DNA of 64,000 nucleotides from Aedes albopictus (Eukaryota > Arthropoda > Insecta > Diptera > Culicidae): positions 288,916,089 through 288,980,088 of the forward strand of contig NC_085138.1 in assembly GCF_035046485.1 (NCBI RefSeq). The letters are read 5' to 3'. The notes beneath the pieces were generated by a model. That model was not told where the DNA came from. It made no database searches and saw only the letters and a program-made list of their open reading frames with translations. The translations under genes were made by a program, and so were the position numbers. This document shows positions 14,975 to 63,974 of the stretch, one piece after another (within the stretch, counting starts at the first letter, position 1; each line of letters starts with the position of its first letter).

Positions 14975-17900
14975 CCTAGCGGTGATGATGCCTTTCTCGT
15001 GCTTTAAAATATCCTTTCAACAAAACTCAAGCGACGTGTTGATGACATTGACATAAATACAAAATGGAAACTGCTTGCTAAATCTACTCAATATGGATAC
15101 ATTTTATTTTAGCATAACATCCAATATTCAGAAAATATAATACAACGATCCAAAATTCAAACCAATCAAGTGTTATGAAGCCGCAAACTTTCGAAACGTT
15201 ATTTTAGATTTAGGGGGATTAGGGGCATAATGGACACCCGGGGCGAAATGGACACCCCTGCTATTGCCAAAACCGTTGACTTTTATGTAAAACTTTTAAT
15301 GCATAAGTGTAAAGGAACAAGGCATGGATCTATTTTTCAAAAGTACCATTTATATTGCTCCAAAATAACCAAAATATCATTGAAATTGAAATATGTTTTT
15401 CATATGGTGAAATTCTTATAATTTAGAAGCAGCATTAAATAAGGTATTACGAGTGTTGGATTGTGTCCACCATAAAAACAAGTGAATTGTTACCTTATCT
15501 ACATGTATACGAAGATTTAGAAATGGATAAAGTATTTTATTTTTGATCATAATTTACTTAAAATAGCAATTTTATTGTTGTAGTCGATTCGGGGCGAAAT
15601 GAACACTGGCAATTACGAATGGATGTACGTGCATTGCATACTGTTAGGCTTTTTAGAGAGTTTGGAAAAAATCAATCCGATTATTCTAGCCTAAAGTTTA
15701 TTTAATTAACTTTGATGTTATGTAAACTCGTCTAATATGAAGTATTATATCTGTGGTATTGATCTCCGTTGGCAAATTACTTAACTGGTCGATGTAACCA
15801 AAGAATTAGCAAAAAATATGCAGGGGTGTCCATTATGCCCCGATGGGTGTCCATTTCGCCCCGTGCCTTTCCTGCCAGCCCTGAAAAACACACGGTTTAC
15901 AATTCATTATTTCTTCACAATAAAGACATTCTACCTGCTGTAAATGATTGAAAGGCGTAGGAAACAAGTTAAAGCTTTATGTCTACTGATAATATGTTAA
16001 GTTTTACTCTGTTATACAGGCCTAACGTACTCATTTGCTTAGGGTGTCCATTATGCCCCTAATCCCCCTACCGGTCATCATTTTTTGACTCCGGATATCT
16101 ACCCCAACTAAACTAAGCGCCATCTTGAACATTGAGACACCATCTTGGATGTTCTGGTATTCATTTTTGGGCTCTGCACCTAAAATTACATAAAATATTC
16201 ACCGTTTCGAATTTTGGCATGTCGTTTATGATTTTCTGGTTTACCAGTTTTGGACAAATACCTGCATTCTTCCCCATTCAAACTATAGTTATATTGCAGA
16301 CCTTGTGAAACAGCGCACAGCTTGGGTTTTCTGATTACAAATTTTGAATTCTGGACATATTTCCATACAAAATATACCCATAATGCAAGAATTTAAAACC
16401 CTATCAAATAGGCGCAAACTTGAATACTGGTCCATTATCTTGGATTTTGGAGCGCTATCTTGGATACTCTGGAGGACTCCGAACATATTTCCCATACCAA
16501 ATACACTTATTTTACATAGTTTTAGAGCTCAAAATTCATTAAAACAGCCGCCATCTTCTGTTGACGCGATCAAATTCTTATATTTCCATTCAATGTTGAC
16601 CCATCCTGCTATAAATTTACACCTTAGGAATCTGGAATGGTACGATTTGATGAGATCGCTTTAGTTTTGTCTATATTTTGTTCTCTTTCATATATGAGAA
16701 CTTAGACCTATGCGTCACTGTTGTTCATACCTAACGTTTATCAGGCCGTTAAACGAAGCCACGATTTAATTTTTCACATGAACGTTGGTTCTGCTACACG
16801 ACAGCCAGTCTGTAATGTGCTCTAAGTCTATTTTCTTGCTAACTGTTCATCAGGTTATCGCAAAAGCCACGATTTGATGTGTCACATGCCTGAATTTGGT
16901 TTACTTTTACATTTGGCCTCTTCCGGCCACTCAAAACCGATTCCGAAACACTTGCTGGCCGTTCATTAGGTAATCTAAAAAGCCGCTATTTGATGTGATG
17001 CATACACGGGTTTGTTTCTCTTTCAGATTTGACCACTTCGGCGGGAACCCCGGAACCGGTTCCGGAACACTACTGGTTCAGATATGGTCTGAGATGATTT
17101 TCCTGCTCATTGTCCACCAGGTAATCGAAAATGCCGTGGTTTGATGTGTCGCATGTAAGGGTTTGGTTCACTTGTATATTTGGCCACGTCCAGCGGAACG
17201 CTTAGAACCGGTTCCGGAACACTACCGGTTCAGATATAGTCTGAGATGATTTTCCTGCTCATTGTCCATCAGGTAATCCAAAATGCCGTGGTTTGATGTG
17301 TCGCATGCATAGGTTTGGTTCACTTGTATATTTGGCCACTTCCAGCGGAACACCCAGAACCGTTTCCGGAACACTACTGGTTCAGATATGGTCTGAGATG
17401 GTTTTCCTGCTCATTGTCCATCAGGTCATCGAAAATGCCGTGGTTTGATGTGTCGGTTTGGTTCAACTGTATTTTTGGCCACTTCCAGTGGAACGCCTAG
17501 AACCGGTTCCGAAACACTACCGGTTCAGATATGGTCTGAGATGATTTTCCTGCTCATTGTCCATCAGGTAATCGAAAATGCCGTGGTTTGATGTGTCGCA
17601 TGTAAGGGTTTGGTTCAATTGTATATTTGGCCACTTCCAGCGGGACGCCTAGAACCGGTTCCGGAACACTACCGGTTCAGATATGGTCTTAGACTATTTT
17701 CCTGCTTACCGCTCATCAGGTTATCGAAAATGCCATGGTTTGATGTGTCGCATGCATAGGTTTGATGCATTTTCATATCTGGTCCCTTCCTGGGGTACCG
17801 TTCCGGAACACCTAAATGGCCATATCTCCGGAACGGCTGGACCGATCCGAACCATTTTCAATAGGAAACAATGGGACCAGATTCCGCGTCGAATGAACCG

Positions 17901-25157: not shown

Positions 25158-26843
25158 CCGTAAAACGGGGTATCTTTGATAATGCGGGTAACTTTGATAG
25201 TGCGGCAGGCATTGAGTAATTTATCTTATAACTAGGGCGTTGGTTCCCTTATTAAGCATGTGGCTCCCATTTTCATCCTACGAAAAACAAAGGATTGAAG
25301 TGCTGTTTGTTTTGTTTCTAATTTTTGTATTTTTTGTTAGAAGTGAGCACCCATGAAAACAAAAAGAACGGAATCAATCGGTGCCGTAATCGCTTGTTTT
25401 CGGATAGGATGAATATGGGAGCGTGAGATTACTGATGGCACACATACCCTATGATTTCTTTAGCTAGTTAAGAAAAAGGTCAACGTTAATCAATTCTATA
25501 CACATTGAAGTTCATCTTAGACGAATTTTCATTAAAATCTAGTTTATATACAACTTTTTGGGCAAAAAATAAAAATTGTTGATATTTTTGTCATTTATCA
25601 ACCAGTGGTGGAATTACTCGCATCGTGAAGCAATTCGCGAGTGTAAAGCCAACACAAGGTTTACTCACGATTCCGAGAGTAAACAGTGTGTGAGTTTATT
25701 CGCACCCGCCTGCTTCGTGAGTACGAAGCAAAACAAAAACAGAAACACTCATGAGGTTTTATTCGTGAAGACATAGTGGAGGTGCGGGAAGTGCATTTTA
25801 TTGTGGTTATAATAGCAAATCTAGTGATTATCCAACATAAACTAATGCTTTATGCTTCCTTGTTCCTGAAAAGCAGCACTGCCAGTCGTTAAAATGCGTT
25901 TTTCGTCAAAATGCAAAAAAACTCACGAAGCTTCGCGAATCACATGCGAGTGCTTGCCAGCTTCGTTTACTCACGAATAAAGAAGTGCGAGTATTCTCGG
26001 GCCGCTGTTGTTCGCGAGTATGTTTGTTTTGGTTAGTGTCTGCTCAGCTGCAATCTTCATCATTTTCCATCTCTGTTATCAACCCCTTCAAACAATCTGC
26101 TATACGACTTCGTTAAAACTATTTTTTCAATGAATGGACTTTTATTCTCGATAGATTCATCATAGTAGACTCCAAATCTGGCCTTGAATCTCTTAACGAA
26201 GTGTGTTTTTACGAAATGGAAGCAATTTTGTAAATTGGGGTATTAATCTCCATACATTGATAAACGCCTAAAAGTTTGCAATGCCCTTGTAATTTCATGT
26301 AGATAAATATGTGTTGTTCAAAATTTGTTAATAAAACATTAAAAACTACCCAAAAAAAGAAAACTAACCATGAATAGCATGTAATCAAATATTGATCTAC
26401 CGTTAAGCATTTATTATTACAAAGATAATGATTTTTGATAGCTAAATTTATTGTGTTTTGCACTCAATACTCAACTAACTCATTTTTATATGTAGAATTT
26501 AGTAAATAATCAATGTTTTGATATAAAAAATCTATCTAATATATTCCACAAGCCTTCGCTTATCATGTTCATACTCCTAAGATTTCAATTTGTGATTAGT
26601 TTTTGAGATTTGATGTGTTTTTAGGGCATTGTCAAAGTTACCCCAAAATGAAAATCTGATTTTCGATTATATGAAAAACTAAAAGTTATCCAAAATATTT
26701 CAGATTATCGAATCTTTTAATTGCAATTGATAACTGATACTCCAGTACTTGTTTTAAAAATATAAAACTCGGGGAAATACTGTTACATGTAAAAATATTA
26801 GGAAAATTCGCTGAAAAACTATCAAAATTACCCCATTTTACGG
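25158..26843 (+). mobile_element. TA element, CCGTAAAACGGGGTATCTTTG family, 1.69 kb
   Basis: TA at 25156-25157 and 26844-26845. The left end is CCGTAAAACGGGGTATCTTT and the right end is ATTACCCCATTTTACGG. The left end repeats its phrase: GATAATGCGGGTAACTTTGA. The interior holds the CCAAATCTGG block with AAACGCCTAAAAGTTTGCAA (26262-26281). At 25610-26020 an ACTCGC/GCGAGT-rich segment with CACGAATAAAG looks like another, unresolved insertion. Confidence 0.75.
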
Positions 26844-27060: not shown

Positions 27061-27062
27061 TA

Positions 27063-28270
27063 GGGGTATTAGGGGCATAATGGACACCCTAAGCAAATGA
27101 GTATGTTAGGCCTGTATAACAGACAAAAACTTGACATATTATCAGTTGACTTACAACTTTAACTTGTTTCCTACGTATTTCAATCATTTACAGCTGGTAG
27201 AATGCCATTATTGTGAAGAAATAATGAATTGAAAACCGTGTGTTTTTTGGGGCTGGCAGCAAAGGTACGGGGTGAAATGGACACCCATCGGGGCATAATG
27301 GACACCCCTGCATATTTTATGCTGTATCTTTGAGAATATTGACCAGTTAAGTAATTTGCCAACGGAGATCAATACCACAGATATAATACTCCATCTTAGA
27401 CGAGTTTACATAACTTCAAAGTTAATTAAATAAATTTTGGGCTAAAATAATCGGATTGAATTTTTTCAAACTCTTTAAAACGCCTAACAGTATGCAACGC
27501 GCGTACATCCATTCATAATTGCCAGTGTTCATTTCGCCCCGAATAGACTACAACATTGAAATTGCTATTTTCAGTGTGTTCTGATCAAAAATATAATACT
27601 TCATCCATTGCTAAATCAACGTATACATGTAGATAAGCTAACAATTCACTTGTTTGTATGGTGGACACACTCAATCACTCGTAATACCTTATTTGCTGCT
27701 GCTTCGAAATTATAAGAAATCTACCATATGAAAAACATACTTCAATTTCAATGATATTTTGGTTATTGTTACGACATCGCAAGAGAGCACGACTGATCCA
27801 CCGGGCGGTCAGCTTTCGAGTGACAAAAGCACTTTAGATCAAAAATGTGTAGAACGAAAGTAAAACAGAGGGAAAACAATAACAAACACAGTTAAGATTT
27901 CGTTGGCAGTTAGCTGTTAGAGTAAAGCTACCTAAGATTTCTTTCATACTAAAAGCTAAAAGGTCGTGGTATATGCGAAGATAGGATACCAATTCTTGTA
28001 AGTTATATAAGATTTATTAGTATTTACAAGCTGTATTAATTTGAATACATTGTTTCAGTTTGAGCTGCCACAAAACAGTGCTGCTGCAAAAATATGGTTT
28101 AAATATCCGAACAGTTATTTTAAAGGAATAATAATGGTATTTTTGAAAAATAGAACAATGTCTTGTTCCTTTACACTTATGCATTGAAAGTTTTACATAA
28201 AAGTCAACGGTTTCGGCAAAAACAGGGGTGTCCATTTCGCCCCGGGTGTCCATTATGCCCCTAATCCCCC
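27063..28270 (-). mobile_element. TA element, GGGGCATAATGGACAC family, copy C (with solo LTR)
   Basis: TA at 27061-27062 and 28271-28272. The orientation is opposite to copies A, B and D. Without the 347-bp solo LTR and its duplicated 5 bp the element is 856 bp, the family length. The central motif AACGCCTAACAGTATGCAAC is at 27480-27499. It forms an inverted pair with copy D. Confidence 0.85.
27767..28113. mobile_element. Solo LTR, 347 bp
   Basis: It begins TGTTACGACATCGC and ends ATATCCGAACA (TGTT...AACA). An exact 5-bp duplication GTTAT flanks it (27762-27766, 28114-28118). Sister copies of the host element are uninterrupted at this point. The retrotransposon family cannot be named from the LTR alone. 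Confidence 0.85.
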
Positions 28271-28471
28271 TACAGATTTTTGGCTATCTGTTTGCATAGA
28301 GCCGCACCAGAGTGCAACTGCAATTAAGCCAGTCCGAGAATCCTACAAATGTTAATTTAAGCAACGGTGAGCATTTTCTTTATTTTATTCCTAATTCTTT
28401 GCAAAGTTTTGAAAACCTATGTAAGATTTATGCAGAACCAGAACTAGCCGCATTTCTATTTGTTCCGTATA

Positions 28472-48975: not shown

Positions 48976-49758
48976 CCGTAATCCGGGGTAACATTGATCA
49001 GAATTTTCGATCTTTCTTAAATAATTCTCTTGTTAAAGCAAATGTTACATATTTTATATTTTTAAAAGAAGTACTGGCCCTCTGAGTTTGTGTTAAGCCA
49101 CTCGAAAAAGTATTGTAAAACTTTAAAACATGTTTAAAAGGGTTTTTAAATCTAATTTTTGATTGTGTTGATTTGGGGTAACATTGATCATATCAGTGAT
49201 CAATGTTCATTTGTGTTGAAAATACACTTACTTACTAAATTCGGGGTCGCTGATTTCGAATATGTTGTCTAAATTCTTACAAATAATGTACTTTTTAAGT
49301 TATTTTAGGATTAAATTCCTCTAAACCACGAATAACGCCTAAAGGTAGGCAATGGCTTAAGGAATTGATAGTCGACTTTTAATAAATCGTAAATTTTACT
49401 GAAAAATAGCATTTTCATGAAAGTTTCGTTTATTAAATCCAACTCTAGGATATCATATTGAAGTAATACAGTGATTTCGAACCTCATATTATATCTAGTA
49501 TTCACGCCAAGCATGAATGTTTGACAGTGTAACTCATTGCGTTACGAAACACAGTTATGGAAAAATCGATTTAATTCAATGTTTATGAAATTCAATTTTC
49601 ATGAATTGCATGTCATTTAATAGCTAAATGATAGCAGATTACGATATACCATTCCATAGTAGAAACTGATTCAATGTAAAATGCTTGTTTGAAGATTTCA
49701 AGGGGTGGGTCAAGACGATCAATGTTACCCCGCTGATCAATGATACCCCGGATTACGG
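48976..49758 (+). mobile_element. TA element, CCGTAATCCGGGGTAACATT family, complete, 783 bp
   Basis: TA at 48974-48975 and 49759-49760. The left end is CCGTAATCCGGGGTAACATT and the right end is GATACCCCGGATTACGG. The phrase GGGGTAACATTGATCA recurs at 49184-49199 and, inverted, at 49718-49733. The central motif AACGCCTAAAGGTAGGCAAT lies at 49334-49353. It serves as the intact reference for the copy split by the Helitron. Confidence 0.85.
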
Positions 49759-49919
49759 TATTTGAAATTCTTATTGAAATTTGGCAACGCTGGTTAACAG
49801 TTTTCATTTTTCAGCAAACCTGCCATTTTTCAAAGTTGTAGAAATTTCAAGCAGATTTATGGTGCGCGCATAAGTTTAGGCTTGTGTTACCGTATCTTGA
49901 ATATAGAATAGATTCTACA

Positions 49920-51133: not shown

Positions 51134-52128
51134 CCGTGATTTCGGGTGAAATTGATCACTTTTCGCAGTTTTCCGCGTCTAATTTTTGAATGTTTGTCGA
51201 TATGGTTAAATTCAATGCTTTAAAACAAGTACGACCATGGTTTTCATCAGTCAACGAGGTTGAAACTTTTATTGCAAATCATTTCATTAATAAATATCAT
51301 TTTAAATAAAAAATCAAAAATTTTACTTTCTGGGTGAAATTGGTCAGTCAGTGAAATGTAACTTAACCACCCTAGAATGCGAAAAGCTATGCAAAACTGT
51401 TACAAGTTTACTAAATTTTTAATCATTTAAGTTTAAAGTTTAATAAATCGAAAGAAAACGCCTAAAAGTATTCAATTTTCTCACTAATTATGTGTATCAA
51501 TATTGCACTTCCGAAAAAGTGCAATTTTATGCATAAATTACAATATTTATAGAACTTTTGATGACGAAATTGGGTTGAGCGAACACTTGGCAGCTATAAA
51601 CATTCATTCGAATATTCATTACATGTGTGATACAGCTACGGTAACATAAGTTTGGAAGTGTCTATGACAGCGTTTCTCAAACTATGGGTCGCGACCCACT
51701 GATGGGTCGCGGGTTGATTTTTGGTGGGTCGCGAAGGCTTGGGCATTATCGTCTTACTTAATTTATGTCAAATTGTATTGTTTGTCATTATTAAAATTTT
51801 TAAACTGTCTTCTTTTCGCTTCAATGTTTGAAACTTTGAAGCTTCATACCAAGAATCAGCAAAAATTACCAACTTTTAACAAGAAACCCCCGAACGCTTG
51901 TGATCCGTACCGAATTATTTGTTTATTTCTTTCGAGGTTTAGTGAAGCTCATCAGAAAAGCTGAATAAAAGATTACAATAAAACAGAAGTAAAGTAATGT
52001 CGTTTTCGTTTTTGCGGCGGTGCTACACCGCTTCGTGGCCATTTTTCACTAATTGTATAAAGTTTAAAGCGTTATTTTTAACGAATAAAAATGGACCTCT
52101 TCTCGATCAATTTCACCCGAAATCACGG
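51134..52128 (+). mobile_element. TA element, CCGTGATTTCGGGTGAAATT family, 995 bp
   Basis: TA at 51132-51133 and 52129-52130. Ends are CCGTGATTTCGGGTGAAATT and its complement; the phrase TGGGTGAAATTGGTCA recurs at 51331. The central motif AAACGCCTAAAAGTATTCAA lies at 51456-51475. It contains one end of another element at 51666. Confidence 0.8.
51666..51740 (+). mobile_element. One terminus of a hAT-like element
   Basis: CAGCGTTTCTCAAACTATGG followed by GTCGCGACCC and repeats of TGGGTCGCG is the terminal pattern of a widespread animal hAT group. The other end was not found, so it is a solo terminus or a degraded MITE. Confidence 0.5.
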
Positions 52129-52860
52129 TACGTGGTTTTTTTTTACCGTGTTCATGCACCGTCTTCACACCAATCAGCAATAGATGATTGGAAACACTCT
52201 TTCGCCTTCCACAACTAGCCTACCTCTTCCAGCTGCATAATTGAATATATCCCATCTTTGTACCTTAGATAATACTGCTCGACAAAATTTTACAAAATTT
52301 GGTGTTGTGGCATGAGAAACTAAAGTGCAGCGGTTTGGGACCCTAGAAGTGTCATAGTGAAAGAATTTTTGAAAAATATTGAACCGGGCCTTCACAGTTT
52401 ATGACCGAAGTTTGTATGGAGAACTTGGGGTGTAAAATTGATATGTTCATTAGAACATGCCGAGCATATATTTAGGCGTTTTCGGTACCGTAAAACGGGG
52501 TATCTTTGATCAGCGGGATATCATTGATCGGCTTGACCGACCTCACGAAATGTTCGAACAAACATTTTTGATTTAAATAGTTTCTGCGCACGAATGGTGT
52601 TTCGTAATCTGCTGTTATTTGGCTATCCTGTTATTGAGTTCATATAGATATTCTTAAACATTGAAAAAAAAATCGATTTTTCCTTAACTGTGTGTCGTGA
52701 CGCAATGAGATACACTGTCAAACATTCATGCTTGGTATGAATACTAGATACAATATAAGGTTAGAAATCCCTGTATAACTTCAATATGATATCCTAGACT
52801 TGGATTTAATGAACGAAACCTTTGTGAAACTGCTTTTTTATAGTAAAACTAGGTGGCCCG

Positions 52861-52876
52861 ACGTGGCTAGCCACGT
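52861..52876 (-). terminator. Helitron 3' terminal hairpin
   Basis: ACGTGGCTAGCCACGT is a perfect 16-nt palindrome ending 8 nt before the terminal CTAG. In Helitrons such a hairpin marks the end of rolling-circle transposition. Confidence 0.85.
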
Positions 52877-53184
52877 TTGCTTCAATTCGACGTTTTTAGT
52901 CTTCAGCCAATATATCATTCAAAGATTTGACTCACATATACATTATTTTACATAGCTCATTTTAACTTCTAAAAGCTCATACTATGCGTATCCGTGAAAA
53001 TCATAGAGAAAATTACGCCATAAACTGCGCGCGCAAAGAAGCCTGTGGCAACTGACAGGTTTGGCACATCATCTGAATTCGCGCAAGTCTAATCAAAGCA
53101 GAACCAATTAAGTTCGAAGGTAAAAGGGGTTTGTTTAGGTTCAAAAATAAAATAAGTTTTGACTTGTCTTACTTTTTAAATTAT

Positions 53185-53190
53185 TTTATT
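53185..53190 (-). terminator. Polyadenylation signal of the Helitron gene
   Basis: AATAAA on the minus strand, about 75 bp after the stop codon (53262), in an AT-rich 3' UTR. It is the only such hexamer close to the stop. Confidence 0.5.
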
Positions 53191-53261
53191 TATCGAATAT
53201 GCTTTACACGTTAATTGGGTCAATGCTTACATATAGTTTGAACGGTGAAATATAAAAAGTC

Positions 53262-56200
53262 CTAATTTGAAAACACCTCTTTAAAAACTATGTTTCTTGT
53301 AAACCAATGTCCATTTTCATTGATTCCTTGTCCCTCCATGTTTTCAATGTAGAGCTTTATAAAATCAGGATACCTTGTACGTGATAAAGCAACATACAAC
53401 TGCCCATGGGAAAACACAGGACTACTTAAGTGAATTCCAACGCGTTCAAATGTTTGTCCTTGTGCCTTATTGATCGTCATTGCAAAAGCTGGTATGATGG
53501 GATATTGACGCCTCCTCAAGATAAATGGATAATTTGAATCGCTGGGTGCAAAGTCAATTCGTGGAATACACACAGTATCTCCATTGTGAGATTCAGACAT
53601 GATTTCACAAACGACGAAGGACTCGTGAAGTTCCCGTACCATCATTCTTGTTCCATTGCATAAACCTATCCTGGGGTTAAGATTACGCAACAGCATTACT
53701 ATCGTGCCCTTTTTCAAGCACAATACATGAGGTGGGACACCCGATGGATTAAGTGTGTACAGGTACTCCACAGGATATGCATTCACATCATTTGCATCCT
53801 CACTTTCTAAAGAATCAGTGCTGTAGTAAATCTTCGCGGTCCCTTCTTGATTATCAATTATTTTTTGATTGATTTGTAGAATGTCTTTGTTAGTTGGAGC
53901 TAAAATCACACGCTTGGACAGTTCCGCTGGAGTGAGGCTGTTCATGTTTCTTCCAAATACTGTTTCAATCAAGTTTGTTCGTTCAATCATGTTCTGTGGA
54001 ATCTTAACTGAATCAGCGTACAAACCTTCGTCTTGCGACAAATTGCTATCGCCTATATCAAGCAACCATTGATTGAAACCTGTATTATCCACGCAGCGCA
54101 TGTTGCAAACCAAAGATATCGTCTCAAATAGTGCCCATAGTGGACTTGATTTTAGGCATGCTTCTACGATTTCCGCTCGTTGTCCCTTAGGAATGACAGG
54201 AAGTGTTTGGCGCCAGTCGCCTCCAATCACAATAGCTTTGCCACCAAAGGGCAATTCTGGGTTGACCAGATCACGTAGAAGCATATCAATACAGCGAAGT
54301 CCTTGCTTTGGTAGCATGGTTATTTCATCTATGATAATGAGAACTGATTTCTTTATATCCTCACCTTCTTTAGAGCCTTGCCTGATCTTTGATACTGATG
54401 TTTCAGTGATAGGAACTGGTAGCTTGAATCCTCGATGTACTGTTTGACCTCCTTTAATAAGGGTTGCAGCTATCCCAGTTGTAGCGTAGGAAAGAACGAT
54501 TTGTCCACGACTTTTTATAAAGCTGATCAATGTGTTGTATAAATAGGTTTTTCCTGAGCCACCAGGACCATTGAGGTAGAATAATTTTTGGCTTCTGGAT
54601 TCATCAACACCACACATAATTTTTGTAAAGGCATTTAGTTGAAAGTCGTTAAGAGTAGATATTTTCCGTTGTGCTTCCGCAAGTTCTAGCTCTGTATTCA
54701 CAGGCTCTTCGTGAATATTGTTAACAAAATCAATAGGTTCAGGTAAGCCGAAAGAAGAGCACTTCATTCCGTGCTGGTTGAGATTTCCTTGTAGATCATG
54801 GAGAGCCAGATTAACAGCAGTCTGATGATCATTATGCCTTGAAAAATCTAAGCACATATGAGATACATACTTTTCCCATAATGCTAAAGCATTACTTGGC
54901 GAGCAGAACACACAAATTAACGCGAATGTCTGTCGAATTTGTGAAGGCATGAGAAAAATCACTGCTTCATCTAAACATTTCTCCCATTCTGCATCTGAAG
55001 AAAGGAGGTTCAATTGGATTGCTGCTTCCTTAAATGTTGGGTACACGATACCATTGATGGTACGAAGGTGTTCAAAACTTATGGCTCCTGACACATGAAG
55101 CAGCAAAAGTCGTAAACAAAACCGTTCGTAATCTTGAAGTCCAACAGTATACATCCTTGCAACAATCCTGGCTCCCCGTTGTCGACGTTTCCATGAACTG
55201 TGATTGAAGACGTAATGTTTTGGGATTTCTGTGTAATGATACTGATTGGCAGTTGGGTCCTCTTGGTTTAGTTGAAACCACGCAAGAAGTTTTGTGCTGC
55301 GATTCAGTGCTTGATCAAGAGCTTCCTGTTCATTTCCTGGCTCAAAAATGATTTGTTGTTGGTTCGGCAAATGTACAGGAAGTCGAATGACCGCGTGTGA
55401 TCTGTCATGCATGGGAAACTCAAGCAATCTCCACATTGCTTCCGGTGCGCTGACATATCGTGCATTGAGATAAGTAGCAATTTCATCATGTATCATTCTT
55501 TGGTTATCTCCAGTCCCAACAACAACATTTGCACAATCAAATCCTTTGTACACATACTTATAGATATACTTAACAGCTTTAAGTGATGTGCACACCTCGG
55601 TATTGATATGGGCATTGTACTTTAGTAAACAATATTTGTTATACGGTACAACATAACGATTATCTAAATCTCGATTATCAATCACAACCGTTATATCACG
55701 ACGGCGGTACAGTGGATAACCATTTGCATTAGTAGCTGTTTGCGTTTGAAGTTGTTTTGGAAATTGTTTTTTACATTCTCCATTCTCCATGCACGGGGCT
55801 GACAGATTATTGGAACCGCAAGGACCATGTATCATAAACTTTGTAACTGCTTCGAACAGGATTGGATCTTGCTCACGATCGGGTATTTCAGCACATACAA
55901 CTTCATCTATACGCTGTGAAGTCTTGAACTTGTCGGTTTCATCTAATACTATCAGTATGTGTGCATGTGGAAGGCCTCGTTTTTGAAACTCTATTGTATA
56001 TATATAAGCAACGCATTTTCCCAAAACATGATTAACCGTTACGTCCCCCATCAGTGCCTTGAGCTTCAACCTGAACACTCTAGCTACCAAATCTGGTCGA
56101 TCGCACGCTGCTTCAAAGCTTCTCAAATTATGCTTAATCTCATCCCAGTTTGGATTCGCTGTAAATGTGATGAAAAGATCAGGTGGACCATGCTTTCCAA

Positions 56201-57840
56201 ATATTGCCATAGCATCCTGGAGCCGCTCCCGCATGTTCCGCGGAGATCCTTCAAAGGATGATGGTAATATTACCGGAACTCCTGCTTGCAACCCAGCAAT
56301 CTCAGCAGCATTCGCAACATGATCCGCTAGTCCTTGATATAGTTCTGCCCGTAATTTGTTCTGCTTGCATCGAACAAAGTTCAAATTGTTGGCTTCAACT
56401 TGTAGGTATGAATCTACGATCCACTGTTGAGTAAGTTTTCCAGCACTAATGATTGGATTAAATGTATCACGTATTGCTGTTTGTGCGACCTTGTATTGAA
56501 GCATGCTAACCTTCGATCTGCTTCCTAGTGATGCACCTAAAAAATAAAATAGTATGAATTGAAAAAGTGAGTAGATAAATGAGAAAATATGTTGGCTTAC
56601 CTGGATAAGAATCACATTGCCAATTCGGTTGCCAGCCTGGTTCACCGTAGGGATAAAAGATTGCATACGTCATGGGATCAAGATTGGGGCTTAAGATATT
56701 GATGTTGACAAATTGTTGAGCCTCATCGCGTGGATTTCTTGGATAAATTCTAATATCACGTTCAAATGGAGGCTCTCCATCTTCGTCTACAAACACCATC
56801 GCGATTTCATTCGAATTTGGGAGATTATACCGCCTTTGATCAGATTGACGGTCACGACGTATTACCATGTTAACAACTGGTATTGCTTGTTTGTTAACTA
56901 TTGATTTCAATCGTTCTCGTTCTTCAATCTCCCGAAGCATTTGGTACGACGTAGCAAGACGATTATGTATACGAAAAAATCGGTCAATTGCTCTAATTAC
57001 TTCCAAACAACAGCCCTCGTTTTCTCTCGCAACAATCCTCTGCTCCGATGCTTGTGAGCTGTCGACGACATACAGCTGAGCGAATTTTCTCGTTTCTCCT
57101 AATGGTGGGTTGATATGCGTTGTACGATGATGTATAGTACCATGAATCCTGAAAGCATACGGCCCATTGCCAGGAGCATCAACTATTTGAGCGCCCATTG
57201 AAGCAAATGACATGGCTGAGTTATACGATCGAATATGCTTTCTGAAATTCTTATGATGGGGGTTATTCGGATCAGTTAGAAGTGACGTCAAAAATGTAGG
57301 ATACTGCAGCACATTGCCGTTGACGTCTACGGGTGTGGGCAATTTAACTTTCCCTTTATGACAACATGAATTAAATTTCTTGTCAGCAGGGAGTTCTTTG
57401 GCAAAATTTCTAGAACCACAGAACTGACACATACTATTCATTGGTCCACAATCATGTCGAAGGAGTTCAGTAGAGAAGGTAACTTGCCGATTCACAGATG
57501 CCCGTTGCTGATCTAAAGAAGCATTTCGATAAACGGTTTGCCTGTACCGTCGAGCCTGCGTCTGTTCAACAGTTTCCAAGCTACGGCGAAGGGTATGCAT
57601 TTCTCTATCGTACAGTCTTCGATTCTGTGATAGAATATCATTTTCTTGCATTCGATGTAGCCTATGGGACACTGCATTTGCTAACTGACGTTTTCGCTTT
57701 TGATCAGGAGTTTCACGTAAACGCTGAATTTGTTTTGACATCCGGTAGCACAATCGAATTTCAGCAGGGCTACAGCGGGCACGACAATTTCGTTGCCGCT
57801 CTCTGTTCAAGCGCCTTTTCTTAGAAGTCGGTGACTCCAT
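53262..57840 (-). CDS. RepHel: Helitron RepHel protein (HUH endonuclease-helicase), two exons
   Basis: Exons 57840-56601 and 56536-53262 join around a 64-bp intron to 4515 nt, 1504 residues, without stops. The join reads CDSYPG|ASLGSRSKV, normal for the family, while reading through either exon edge gives non-homologous tails. The protein nicks and pastes single-stranded DNA by rolling-circle-like transposition and unwinds it. Seen: basic N-terminus; Cys cluster at 131, 138, 141, 159-160 (zinc-finger-like); Rep motif FITFTANPNWDEI at about 535-547; HUH motif GLPHAHIL with His 604 and 606; KYIYKYVYKG with the tyrosine pair at about 737 and 741; Walker A GPGGSGKT 1070-1077; Walker B IIIDEIT about 1147; GGDWRQTLPV about 1185; TINKAQGQTF 1434; LYVALSRTR about 1460 (Pif1-type helicase). 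All catalytic residues are present. No extra OTU or AP-endonuclease domain. Length is normal. Probably functional. Confidence 0.92.
56537..56600 (-). other. Spliceosomal intron in the Helitron gene
   Basis: A 64-bp segment GTAAGCCAAC...CTATTTTATTTTTTAG with consensus donor and T-rich acceptor. It splits a Gly codon (phase 1). Its removal restores the frame, since 64 is not a multiple of three and exons 1240 + 3275 nt are. Confidence 0.88.
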
Positions 57841-58083
57841 GTTTGGTGAATTACAATCACTTTTATTTTTAACACACAGTTGAGTCCTTTCTCACTATCC
57901 TTTTTTCTGAACTTGCACCTTAACTTGTTCACTTAAACGCTTTTGCACTTGATACACTTTCAATTTTTAAACTTTATCACACTTTTACTTTGAGGCACAC
58001 AACTTGAACGTTTGCCGGTTCAATAAATACTGATGTATCTGTGGGGCGTGTGCTCCTTTATATAGTATCCAAAATGGGAAAAG

Positions 58084-58116
58084 GAATATTCTCGACCATT
58101 CCGTATTTTTCTGGAA
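58084..58116. promoter_or_regulatory. Heat-shock element array 1 (proximal)
   Basis: In-register triplets every 5 bp on the plus strand: GAA 58084, TTC 58089, GAC 58094, TTC 58099, TAT 58104, TTC 58109, GAA 58114. Five of seven match the alternating consensus exactly, and GAC at 58094 is one base off. It lies about 55-85 bp upstream of the predicted start site. Confidence 0.7.
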
Positions 58117-58147
58117 AGTGCCTTTGGAGAGACAAATGCTTCCGATA

Positions 58148-58175
58148 GAAAGTTCTAGAAAGTTCGAGAGGCTTC
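58148..58175. promoter_or_regulatory. Heat-shock element array 2
   Basis: GAA 58148, TTC 58153, GAA 58158, TTC 58163, GAG 58168, TTC 58173: six alternating units in perfect 5-bp register, one with a single mismatch. This is stronger than the minimal three-unit element HSF trimers need. Confidence 0.8.
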
Positions 58176-58228
58176 CATACTTAAGGTTCGAAAATTGTAA
58201 CGTTGAAGGTATCTAAATGAATACACAG

Positions 58229-58246
58229 GAACATTCCCGAACATTC
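58229..58246. promoter_or_regulatory. Heat-shock element array 3 (cut by the gap)
   Basis: GAACATTCCCGAACATTCC: GAA 58229, TTC 58234, GAA 58239, TTC 58244, four perfect units. The assembly gap starts at 58248, so the array may continue. Confidence 0.8.
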
Positions 58247-58247
58247 C

Positions 58248-58747
58248 NNNNNNNNNNNNNNNNNNNNNNNNNNNNNNNNNNNNNNNNNNNNNNNNNNNNN
58301 NNNNNNNNNNNNNNNNNNNNNNNNNNNNNNNNNNNNNNNNNNNNNNNNNNNNNNNNNNNNNNNNNNNNNNNNNNNNNNNNNNNNNNNNNNNNNNNNNNNN
58401 NNNNNNNNNNNNNNNNNNNNNNNNNNNNNNNNNNNNNNNNNNNNNNNNNNNNNNNNNNNNNNNNNNNNNNNNNNNNNNNNNNNNNNNNNNNNNNNNNNNN
58501 NNNNNNNNNNNNNNNNNNNNNNNNNNNNNNNNNNNNNNNNNNNNNNNNNNNNNNNNNNNNNNNNNNNNNNNNNNNNNNNNNNNNNNNNNNNNNNNNNNNN
58601 NNNNNNNNNNNNNNNNNNNNNNNNNNNNNNNNNNNNNNNNNNNNNNNNNNNNNNNNNNNNNNNNNNNNNNNNNNNNNNNNNNNNNNNNNNNNNNNNNNNN
58701 NNNNNNNNNNNNNNNNNNNNNNNNNNNNNNNNNNNNNNNNNNNNNNN
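58248..58747. other. Assembly gap (500 N)
   Basis: Exactly 500 undetermined bases, probably a placeholder length. It hides the Helitron 5' end and about 80-90 bp of the host TA element. Open frames running through the N's are artefacts. Confidence 0.98.
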
Positions 58748-58964
58748 TAATAACTCAAAAAGTACATAACTCGTAAGAATTTGAACAACATACCTATTTG
58801 AAATCAGAGACCCCAAATTTAGTAAGTAAGGATATTTTCAACACAAACGAATTATGATCACTGACATGATCAATGTTACCCCAAATCAACAAAATCAAAA
58901 ATTAGATTAAAAAGTTTATTTTAACATGTTTTAAAGTTTCACAATACATTTTCGAGTAGCTTAA

Positions 58965-59078
58965 CCCTTTGGAGCCGGAGGGGTCATATATGACCCCGGC
59001 GATGAAACCGAGCATAACAAACGTGTTCGACACCAGCGAGGTTGTGTCGACAGCGGCGAAAATATCGGCTCCAAAAGG
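58965..59078. mobile_element. piggyBac-like MITE, 114 bp, TTAA target
   Basis: TTAA at 58961-58964 and 59079-59082. Ends are CCCTTTGGAGCCG and CGGCTCCAAAAGG. The reference copy at about 49103 reads GTTAAGCCAC without the insertion. It also holds a palindromic GGGGTCATATATGACCCC. Confidence 0.85.
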
Positions 59079-60110
59079 TTAACACATACTTAGAGGCCCC
59101 GTACCTCTTAAAATATATAACATGTAACGTTTGCTTTAACAAGAGAATTATTCAAGAAAGATAGAAAATTTTTACCAATGTTACCCCGGATTACGGTACT
59201 AAGGTTAGTAGCGTTATTGTCTAACGCCTAAATATATGTTCAGCGCTTTCAAATGCACATATCAATTGAACACCTCAAGTTCTCCATACAATCTTCGGTC
59301 ATAAACTGTGAAGGCCCGGTCCAATATTTTTAACACTCTTTCACTATGACACTGCCCCTATAACAATAGTGTTGAACGGTGTAATTATTACATAAATTTT
59401 CAACTTAGAAACATAGCTGCCAACAAAACAGTAGCGCCTATCTCGGAATGGTGGTCCTCGGGTGAACTACTCGTATACTCTTCCATGCGCATTTGTAGCA
59501 TGTAAACTTTGGTATCCAAGCAACCTTCCAATAAAGGTTTGCGAATAGTAATCAATATACTCAGCAGGAAAACGTTTTATAAAATTCTGGTGAAAAGCAG
59601 GTACCTACCGCCAGTCGGGGTGACATTGGGCCTGGGGGGTAACTTTGGGCCAAAAATCAAGAAAGATGTTTCGCTCAAAATACTAAAATTCATCAAAGTG
59701 ATTATCAAAAAGTGGATGGTATACGGTAAATATAACTTGCGTTGACCATCCGATGTAGAAAAAAGTCACATTTAGTCAATTTTCTATTAAGAAAACTTGA
59801 TGTGAATTGTATGCTTAGGCGTACTGTACAGTATCGTTGTTTTAAAATTCCCAGCAGAAAACAGCTGAAAACCGAACATGTAATGCATTACAGTTTTCTC
59901 GGTGTGTTGGGTAGTTGTTTTGAAAAGTATAATGAGTTTTCTTGGTTTTGTATGCTATTCTGCATGAAAAACTTATTTACTCAAGCTGTAGTACAAATAC
60001 TTCGTTTTGGGGGTGACTTTGGGCCATACAAAAGCAATGCAATCAGTACGAGAACCTTGCAAATGTCAATTAAAACGACTGAGAGTATTCACATTATTTT
60101 ATGCATAATA

Positions 60111-60966
60111 GGGGGATTAGGGGCATAATGGACACCCTAAGCAAATGAGTGCGTTAGACCTGTATAACGAAGAAAAACTTAACATATTATCAGTTGACTT
60201 ACAACTTTAACCTGTTTCCTCCGTATTTCAATCATTTACAGCAGGTGGAATGTCTTTATTGTGAAGAAATAACGAATTTTAAATCGTGTGTTTTTTTGGG
60301 CTGGCAGGAAAGGTGCGGGGCGAAATGAACACCCATCGGGGCATAATGGACACTCCTGCATATTTGATGCTAATTCTTTGGTTACATCGATCAGTTAAGT
60401 AATCTGCCTACGGAGATCAATGCCACAGATATAATACTCCATCTTAGACGAGTTTACATAACATCAAAGTTAATTAAGTAAACTTTAGGCTAAAATAATC
60501 GGATTGATTTTTTCCAAACTATCTAAAACGCCTAACAGTATGCAATGCACGTACATCCATTTGTAATTGCCGGTGTTCATTTCGCCCCGAACCGACTACA
60601 ACATTAAAACTGCTATTTTAAGTAAATTCTGATCAAAAATAAAATACTTCATCCATTGCTAAATCTCCGTATACATGTAGATAAGGTAACAATTCATTTG
60701 TTTGTATGGTGGACACACTCCAACACTCGTAATGTCTTATTTGCTGCTGCTTCGAAATTATAAGAATTTCACCATATGGAGAACATATTTCAATTTCAAT
60801 GATATTTTGATTATTTTGGAGCAATATAAATGGTACTTTTGAAAAATAGAACCATGACTTGTTGCTTTACACTTATACATTAAAAGTTTAACATAAAAGT
60901 CAACGGTTTCGGCAAAAACAGGGGTGTCCATTTCGCCCCGGGTGTCCATTATGCCCCTAATCCCCC
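60111..60966 (-). mobile_element. TA element, GGGGCATAATGGACAC family, copy E
   Basis: An 856-bp copy, TA at 60109-60110 and 60967-60968, inverted relative to copy A. Central motif AACGCCTAACAGTATGCAAT at 60528-60547. It is nested at the same site as the partial copy at 33405-33527, so the two larger elements descend from one nested ancestor. Confidence 0.85.
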
Positions 60967-61225
60967 TACGGTTTAAAATATTGGAAATAAATGTTAGATT
61001 CATGCAAAATTAAATTTCACGCATATCAGTTGCTAGGCAGATGATAAAGAAATATTACTTTCGTCTTTTGAGAATGTTAGTTGGAGTTATATTTATAGGA
61101 TAGTGGATATATTGTGTAGGAACGTTGATCGTTTACAATGAATGTGGTAAAATTGTCGCGTTTGTTTGTCTGTGATGTTATTTTGAAGTGACTAGGCACT
61201 GATAGGTTGTGGGCAAGTATCTATA

Positions 61226-62177
61226 CAGGGTGTTAGGTTCCTGAGTGCAAACTTTTTAAAGGGTGATAGAGGACCATAAATGGTGAAAAAAATTGTTCTA
61301 CGCATATGGTCAAATCTCAACCGTTACGTAGTTATTGAACTCCCCATGTTTTTGACTCTTATTGCCTTAACTGGCTATTATTTTAAAATGGTCAAACTTA
61401 TCGCACTTTTTTAACCCTTATTCGAAAGATTATTGAATTTTCTATCAAATGGCATCGGTTTAGGTTTAGTTAAATAACTAAGTTTTCTAGAGCAAATTGC
61501 CTAAAAGTTGTGTGTTTTAATTCGTTTTTGTCAATTATCTTTGAAAAATGCGTAATAATTTAAAATTCTTTATTTGGCAAAGTTGTGGCCCCTGTTTCAC
61601 TCGACATTTCGTACTTTGACATCAAACTTCTATCTCTTATCGTTTTCTTGCAATTTTGATTTAAACGTCGCATTTCAGATCAGAAATTTGCAATCGTCAT
61701 GGAAAGCACTTTTTTGCGCACCGTGCCACACATTCAAATCGAAATTGCAAGAAAACGATAAGAGTTAGAAGTTTTGCGTCAAAGAACAAATTGTAGAGTG
61801 GAACAGGGGCCACAACTTTGCCAAAGAAAGAATTTTAATTTATTACGCATGTTTTAAAGATAATGGACATAAACAAATAAAAACACACTATTTTTAGCTA
61901 GTTTGCTCTAGAAAACTTAGTTATTCAGCTAAACCAATCGGTTCAAAAATGCCATTTGATAGAAAATTCAATAATCTTTCGAATAAGCGTTAAAAAACTG
62001 CGATAAGTTTGACCATTTTAAAGTTATAGCCAGTTAAGGCAATAAGAGTCAAAAACATGGGGAGTTCAATAACTACGTAACGGTTGAGATTTGACCATAT
62101 GCGTAGAACAATTTTTTCACCATTTATGGTCCTCTATCACCCTTTAAAAAGTTTGCACTCATGAACCTAACACCCTG
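61226..62177. mobile_element. 952-bp near-complete foldback element
   Basis: TA at 61224-61225 and 62178-62179; ends CAGGGTGTTAGGTTC and complement. Arms 61226-61663 and about 61736-62177 (about 440 nt each) are complementary over their length with few differences, around a ~72-nt loop. No ORF. A transcript through it would form a ~440-bp duplex. Confidence 0.9.
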
Positions 62178-62407
62178 TATATTTGATAGTTTCGATTTTC
62201 AAGCGATATTATCTCACATTGAACTGTTTTGTTTGAATTTTAGTGTTTGGCCCAATGCTATATCATTGTCAAAATTAAAGTTAAAGCATTTTTACTTTAA
62301 ACAATCCTAAACAGTATAAAAATGAACGTGTCTACCGAATACAACATTGTTTTAGAGCTAAGATATTGTTGTAACGACCTACAACACACTTAGAAAAAAA
62401 CACCGAC

Positions 62408-62904: not shown

Positions 62905-63974
62905 ATGCAAAAAAAAAAATCAGCTCAATTTATTTATAGGGTGAGATCGACAGTTGTACCTTCTTTGGACTGCAATATCGTGGAGCGTAACTCACTTCCA
63001 GACTCCCTAAGTTCGATGGGTGTTGATGTCGATCAATTGGCCACTTCAAATGAAACATCTAAAAAAAAAATGTTATTGGATCACTCAATGTATGTGGTGG
63101 GAGAACTTGAGATCGACGGCACATGGGATTCCACGCCAAACATACCGTTGGTGATACGCAGATCCCGTGAGGACCTCAATAATACTTTCCAGCATCTGGA
63201 CTATAGCTACTGCTCTGTCCAGAATGCCTACAGGATCGTGATGGCTAAGTCGAAAAGTGTAATGGCTCCTGCAGAGCAATCTCCAGAGACGTTAGAGGGG
63301 ATCATCGAGGGACTTTTTCAGCGCCATGATCCTAGTCCTTGGCCATTTTCGTAGGACAGCCGGGGACTGGGGTTGGCGATGAGGAGAGGGTCATTGATGT
63401 GGAACTTGCGAGGATAGCAAAGCCCCTTAGCGTAGGTACGGCTCCAGGTCCGGATGGAGTTCCGAACCTGGCCTTAAAAGTAGCTATTGCAGAGGCTCCC
63501 GAGATGTTCAGAGCTGATATGCAGAAATGCCTGGACGAGGGACTTTTCCAAGAAGTATAGAAGAGGCAGAGCCTTATTCTATTGCCAAAGGCGGGGAAAC
63601 CATCAGGAGACCCGTCGGTATATAGATCAATATGCTTGATCGACACGGCAGAGAAGATGCTTGGAAAGATCATCCTCAATCGAATATTGAGACACACCGA
63701 GGGTGTGAATGGTCTCTCGGGTGGCAAGTACGGCTTCCTGAAGGGGGGGGGGGGGTCAACTGTAGACGCAATCCTGTCGGTTACAAAAAATCGTTGGTTA
63801 CTAAAAATCTGGATGCAAGGACCGCGTTCTATAGCGCCAGTTAGCCGGCTACTTATTGCCGATGCGCTCCTGCGTCTGGGGATACCTAGGTACCTGTACA
63901 AGATTCTCGGAAGCTACTTCCAGAATCGAGTGCCTACTAGTTTACGACGTGGGAATGTCATGACGCCACTCTAA
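62905..63974 (+). pseudogene. Decayed non-LTR retrotransposon reverse transcriptase
   Basis: Recognisable from about 63215: RIVMAKSKSVMAPAEQSPET and FQRHDPSPWPF (linker before RT), then after a frameshift near 63340 APGPDGVPNLALK, a TAG in place of Trp at 63558 (GLFQEV*KRQS), LPKAGKPSGDPSVYRSICL, and YGFLKGGGG, where a 13-G run replaces the usual Arg codon, STVDAI. A further shift separates NLDARTAFYSAS (first catalytic Asp region) from ADALLRLGIPRYLYKILGSY. The YADD block is absent. The pattern is that of R1/jockey-like RTs. The N-terminal 100 residues of the open frame are not recognised. Confidence 0.75.

Follow-up and report, generated by a model that had tools for sequence, protein, structure and literature searches.

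A Helitron in the genome of the mosquito Aedes albopictus carries, directly upstream of a full-length RepHel transposase gene, a promoter layout of the type recognised by heat-shock factor (HSF), and non-autonomous elements that share its termini are enriched in similar sites. The element lies on the minus strand of a 64,000-nucleotide stretch of contig NC_085138.1 (forward-strand positions 288,916,089 to 288,980,088), hereafter the window. We consider it probable (roughly 65%) that this is an HSF-switched Helitron supplying RepHel to a large non-autonomous family that itself bears HSF-type sites. Under heat or protein stress, HSF trimers would bind the arrays of heat-shock elements (HSEs) and RepHel mRNA would rise; the protein would then copy its own element together with many non-autonomous elements having the same two ends, and since each of these bears several arrays, HSF-type sites would be sown across the genome. 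From the DNA we infer HSF binding, heat induction, mobilisation by the RepHel of the window and effects on nearby genes.

Three HSE arrays occupy 164 bp (58084-58247) upstream of the TATA box and initiator of the RepHel gene. Each shows the pattern by which HSEs were defined here, at least three nGAAn units that alternate in a 5-bp register. A sequence-only reading of this DNA had described arrays of seven positions, six units and four units ahead of a TATA box, an initiator and an A-rich leader, and this layout was confirmed (Table 1). The arrays scored 27.5, 23.8 and 23.7, against a maximum of 21.0 in thirty 64-kb first-order Markov sequences; second-order Markov sequence totalling 3.84 Mb contained 11 hits of at least 18, three of at least 21 and none of at least 23.5, and no two of its hits of at least 18 lay within 165 bp of each other. 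Both controls bear out the earlier judgement that a chance origin is very unlikely, and chance falls far short of explaining three arrays within 164 bp. Because another site in the window, at position 25902, also scores 23.8, a lone array should not be over-read. The motifs support an HSF-type promoter layout within a Helitron carrying a full-length RepHel. A scan of 52000-60000 against Rfam gave no match reaching the gathering score.

The element is, on its predicted protein, a rolling-circle transposon of the RepHel type. Since the coding region is split by a 64-bp intron, the unbroken 1504-residue gene of the sequence-only reading is correct after splicing only: the spliced product of 1504 amino acids is open to its stop at 53262, but it is encoded in two exons and not in one frame. 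Pfam placed Helitron_like_N and PIF1-type helicase matches (PF05970 and PF21530) together in one protein on the longer open reading frame (ORF), residues 49-1132 of which align with the bat Helitron Helraiser (7lcc) across the HUH motif, the paired tyrosines and the Walker A region; GLPHAHIL and KYIYKYVYKG are among the aligned segments (HUH Rep domain, paired tyrosines). No Caenorhabditis names occurred among the best 120 protein matches of RepHel, many of which are unnamed, and viral contigs contained no relative by the RepHel protein and none by the 29-nt 5'-end pattern.

The limits of the insertion were drawn from a related repeat copy in the window that lacks the Helitron and represents the empty site. 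Its alignment to the interrupted repeat breaks at 52848 and resumes at 58749; therefore the DNA from 52849 to the assembly gap, arrays included, is inserted. At the 52848 junction the empty-site copy continues TTTACG, whereas CTAG and the Helitron palindrome follow in the window, so that the 3' end reads palindrome, CTAG at 52852-52849 and then host T at the empty-site boundary. The A|T insertion junction is seen exactly at this one side, the other falling within the 500-N gap. The palindrome is common to L041, L067 and L003 and is also whole in L066, and its DNA fold was no better than that of shuffled sequences (z = -0.37). The description of the Helitron as intact is only partly checkable because of the gap: RepHel is open after splicing and the 3' end is fixed at 52849, but the 5' terminus lies among the Ns.

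Table 1. Coordinates of the Helitron, its promoter motifs and the surrounding repeat in the window.
Feature	Position	Strand	Basis or remark
Visible Helitron insertion	52849-58247	minus	Related repeat copy aligns to 52848 and resumes at 58749; 5' end in gap on right
Helitron 3' terminus, CTAG then T on minus strand	52849-52852	minus	Sequence and boundary; L003 and non-autonomous copies end likewise
Subterminal palindrome ACGTGGCTAGCCACGT	52861-52876	minus	Sequence
RepHel exon 2, with Rep domain and PIF1-type helicase	56536-53262	minus	Pfam, Helraiser alignment, splice
Predicted 64-bp GT-AG intron	56600-56537	minus	Sequence prediction
RepHel exon 1, N-terminal part	57840-56601	minus	ATG at 57840; alone without Pfam match
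Putative A-rich 5' leader	57841-58031	minus	About 190 nt to ATG 57840; sequence, start site inferred
Initiator-like TCAGT	58033-58029	minus	Sequence
TATA box TATATAAAG	58064-58056	minus	Sequence
Proximal HSE array	58084-58116	.	GAA TTC GAc TTC tat TTC GAA; 5-bp register, five of seven positions perfect
Middle HSE array	58148-58175	.	Alternating; five of six units perfect
Distal HSE array	58219-58247	.	Four perfect units (58229-58246) and in-register GAA at 58219; ends at gap
Assembly gap, 500 N	58248-58747	.	Hides about 89 bp of host repeat as well as the Helitron 5' end
Interrupted host repeat, left part	52486-52848	plus	81% to 49760-49394 reversed
Interrupted host repeat, right part	58749-58965	plus	86% to 49304-49092 reversed
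Related repeat copy without Helitron (empty site)	49092-49760	minus	Alignment to interrupted repeat

A six-frame search of the assembly (1.344 Gb, 1494 contigs) with the RepHel exon-2 ORF as query identified one further close copy, L003, among the best 41 of 171 candidates, which were scored. L003 is 99.3% identical to the window over 52847-56427 and is broken by one stop codon; its 5' part starts with TC after ATTAA. The expectation that other copies keep the arrays held in part, in that L003 has a seven-position array (score 32.9, 89-121 nt from its 5' end) resembling the distal array of the window, but it has lost the two proximal arrays, along with the TATA box and exon 1, and the window promoter is unmatched elsewhere in the genome. 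A (GAA)n run at L003:1448-1506 follows the HSE array and adjoins exon 2 directly, at the point where promoter and exon 1 are gone.

The 5' end of L003 gave access to the non-autonomous elements. Used as a query it returned 821 first-look candidates, and every one of the 40 that were scored was a match; 30 loci were fetched, comprising L003's own site and the 29 others on which the family counts rest. Exact matches to the 31-nt 5' terminus of L003 number 91 genome-wide, against none for the backward control, and the copies bearing it are, judged from the 29 examined, mostly non-autonomous Helitrons. Host A precedes the 5' TC in 28/29, the remaining one instead following the CTAG of another element. 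A CTAG end was located in nine of the 29, with T next in 9/9, and in 19/29 no end occurs within the fetched stretch; a match in L064 was dropped as not a true CTAG. The 3' palindrome and CTAG of the non-autonomous copies match those of the autonomous copy. In several pairs with differing 5' flanks, identity is 99.8-99.9% across as much as 1 kb, and L067, L076 (1-1850) and L053 contain head-to-tail tandem Helitrons in which a 5' end directly follows another element's CTAG, a pattern that fits recent rolling-circle copying. The whole element in L076, which follows a 50-nt remnant of a further 5' end, measures 1768 bp from 5' end to CTAG and holds nine arrays of at least 16, among them a perfect six-unit HSE. 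A subgroup formed by L044, L049 and L057 has the common 5' end but differs inside, where words resembling GCATTGGTGCATCG recur and no strong array occurs.

HSE load was compared between the 700 bp at the 5' end of each of the 29 copies (20.3 kb in all) and their upstream flanks (43.6 kb), an HSE-like array being one that scored at least 16 and a strong array at least 21. At thresholds of 16, 18 and 21 the copies contained 145, 93 and 69 arrays versus 13, 4 and 3 in the flanks, a density 24-50 times higher; the remainder of the window (58.1 kb, Helitron excluded) contained 5, 2 and 1, and 166 kb of partly overlapping sequence from other Helitron loci 4, 1 and 1. Arrays of at least 16 were present in every copy (29/29) and of at least 21 in 26/29, and those of the non-autonomous copies begin about 90-160 bp from the 5' ends. 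Across the 1.34-Gb genome there are 84 perfect six-unit HSEs and none for the backward control. Fifty of the 84, those of C1 and part of C2, were listed and sorted by eye: 41/50 have one core or close variants of it, and 14/50 lie inside the repeat around the L056 array (best 40 of 215 candidates scored). A further count placed 13/50 no more than 9 kb downstream of one of 51 family 5' ends (random mean 0.02), a proximity statistic in which clustered HSEs are not independent of each other; only five of these 13 lie within 1.8 kb, the length of an element, and the other eight would sit in neighbouring copies. The union tied to the family is 22/50. The prediction that offspring of the Helitron scatter heat-shock sites is supported at the level of sequence by HSE-enriched copies that share the L003 5' end.

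Several observations weigh against the reading of an HSF-switched Helitron at the head of an HSE-bearing family. The full three-array promoter is single copy, its conservation being comparable for the distal array alone, in L003, and the 5' end of the window Helitron is hidden by the gap. No array of at least 21 occurs in 3/29 copies (L044, L049 and L057). Among the listed six-unit HSEs, 9/50 have other cores and 28/50 are not tied to the family. The regions upstream of the RepHel-like loci L033-L037 contain no array of at least 18, and since the more distant Helitrons of this genome lack arrays near their genes, the HSE load is not a general Helitron property. Upstream of L038 there is one array of 21.2, adjoining degenerate relics with similar ends. 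These relics, at L038:5000-6150, have similar Helitron ends, the palindrome ACGTGGCTAACCACGT and weak HSE-like sites, and stand beside a RepHel fragment.

The arrays could instead be internal, minisatellite-like repeats of the Helitron that resemble HSEs and have no role for HSF. Many of them do lie within repetitive elements, some are 10-bp tandem-like, a (GAA)n expansion adjoins the L003 array, and satellites unrelated to HSF can yield perfect six-unit HSEs, as the nine with other cores, several of them simple-looking, illustrate. The spacers argue otherwise. In ten representative copies the TTC-NN-GAA spacers were TG in 29 cases, TA in 16, GA in 9, CA in 6 and others in 6, whereas the GAA-NN-TTC spacers were free, with 13 different pairs, so that the GAA/TTC units were kept while the sequence between them varied. 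A complement lies at +5 from TTC in 66 cases and from GAA in 65, versus about 12 at other distances, and at +5 GAA/TTC stand far above other trinucleotides. We take the TTC-NN-GAA preference to fit the HSF consensus. As the ten copies are related and their units were pre-selected, the analysis is not a clean test, and the pattern supports an HSF role without proving it. With the arrays of the window also placed directly upstream of a TATA box and initiator, we regard a minisatellite origin as less likely, indeed improbable.

A different question is whether the promoter came from the host, the sequence-only reading having raised capture of an hsp70-like heat-shock promoter. Host hsp70 promoters share with the window an HSE upstream of a TATA box, an initiator and an A-rich leader of about 180-200 nt, and ACTATATAAA is common to the window promoter and five of the six hsp70 promoters compared (L074 lacks it). 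The six, from the cluster at C1:316.5 Mb, were each tested against 200 shuffles; a seventh, L075, was left out, having no HSE of at least 13. Host arrays are weaker, with best scores of 12.7-19.0 in the six promoters versus 23.7-27.5 in the window. Another hsp70 sequence of this genome, L077, has 99% identity to 'heat shock protein 70 B2-like [Aedes albopictus]' and 87-93% to proteins of several further mosquitoes among the 120 matches listed, in keeping with an Aedes host. For the upstream region, shuffles did as well as the real alignment in 0/200 cases for L070 and 2/200 for L069 and L074, but in 6, 22 and 41 of 200 for the other three; the L070 alignment spans 41 bp and runs through the HSE core. 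The leaders of the window and the six hsp70 genes showed no homology, 9 to 191 of 200 shuffles being as good. The likeness upstream is weak and centred on the HSE core, the window promoter has no second match in the genome, and family members without that promoter bear arrays of their own. The proposal that the Helitron took a host hsp70 promoter and leader is thus quite improbable and the earlier claim of capture is not upheld, although an old capture, since eroded, may have taken place. Most likely the arrays are native to the Helitron family and do not derive from hsp70.

HSF might also bind the arrays of an element that is silenced or immobile, so that heat would bring no rise in transposition. 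Silencing of mosquito transposons by piRNAs is usual, and the assembly offers one copy with the window promoter, its 5' end hidden, and one other close copy, which is broken. We nevertheless consider this rather unlikely, given that the RepHel frame is open and that the near-identity of non-autonomous copies, their differing 5' flanks and their tandems speak for recent copying. A more speculative extension of the HSF-switched Helitron, possible but less likely than not, is that HSF acts on both sides of transposition, through heat-made RepHel and through subterminal arrays that open the ends RepHel must reach; if true, such two-sided action would produce heat-synchronised bursts of rolling-circle copying and make a single transposon family the source of part of a mosquito's heat response, as a convergent parallel in insects to the HSE-bearing Helitrons of Caenorhabditis.

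Transposons that answer heat exist elsewhere. ONSEN of Arabidopsis is a heat-activated retrotransposon and resembles the mosquito element in answering heat but, as a retrotransposon, is no relative of a Helitron; to our knowledge, Helraiser has no HSE promoter. The closest parallel is in Caenorhabditis (PMC6927752 and PMC6765114), where in Helitron1_CE and others HSEs likewise precede the Rep-helicase gene of the autonomous element and cluster in non-autonomous copies genome-wide. In C. elegans the same arrangement was demonstrated by ChIP and RNA, and Helitron1_CE induction depended on HSF-1 (PMC6765114, PMC6927752). The two cases differ in host phylum and in proof, since ChIP, RNA and hsf-1 knock-down belong to the Caenorhabditis case and the mosquito case is known from sequence; as in the HSF-responsive Helitrons of Caenorhabditis, HSEs stand, by sequence, in the promoter of a transposase gene. 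PMC6927752 states that Caenorhabditis alone among the genomes scanned, a set that may not include a mosquito, showed HSE enrichment in Helitrons, and its authors suggested that the link is possibly restricted to that genus. Our search of open-licence literature, by titles or abstract openings, recognised no report of HSE-bearing Helitrons in insects among the papers listed.

The mosquito family thus looks like an insect instance of the Caenorhabditis-type HSE Helitrons. Heat may activate the family, and the family may have distributed heat-responsive switches genome-wide. With a second case, this one in an insect, the coupling of transposon families to HSF would prove to be a strategy that can recur. 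It would also allow direct tests of whether heat drives transposition and rewires the heat response in a mosquito with recently-active-looking copies.

The window contains other repeats. At 60109-60968 there is a MITE-like repeat of about 860 bp with near-identical inverted ends of 29 bp, and five further copies or parts of it occur in the window (near 15211, 18745, 27061-28273 and 28470). A self-inverted repeat of about 960 bp, 88% identical to its own reverse complement, occupies 61222-62181, and a broken reading frame at 63000-63960 resembles, by eye, part of a non-LTR reverse transcriptase.
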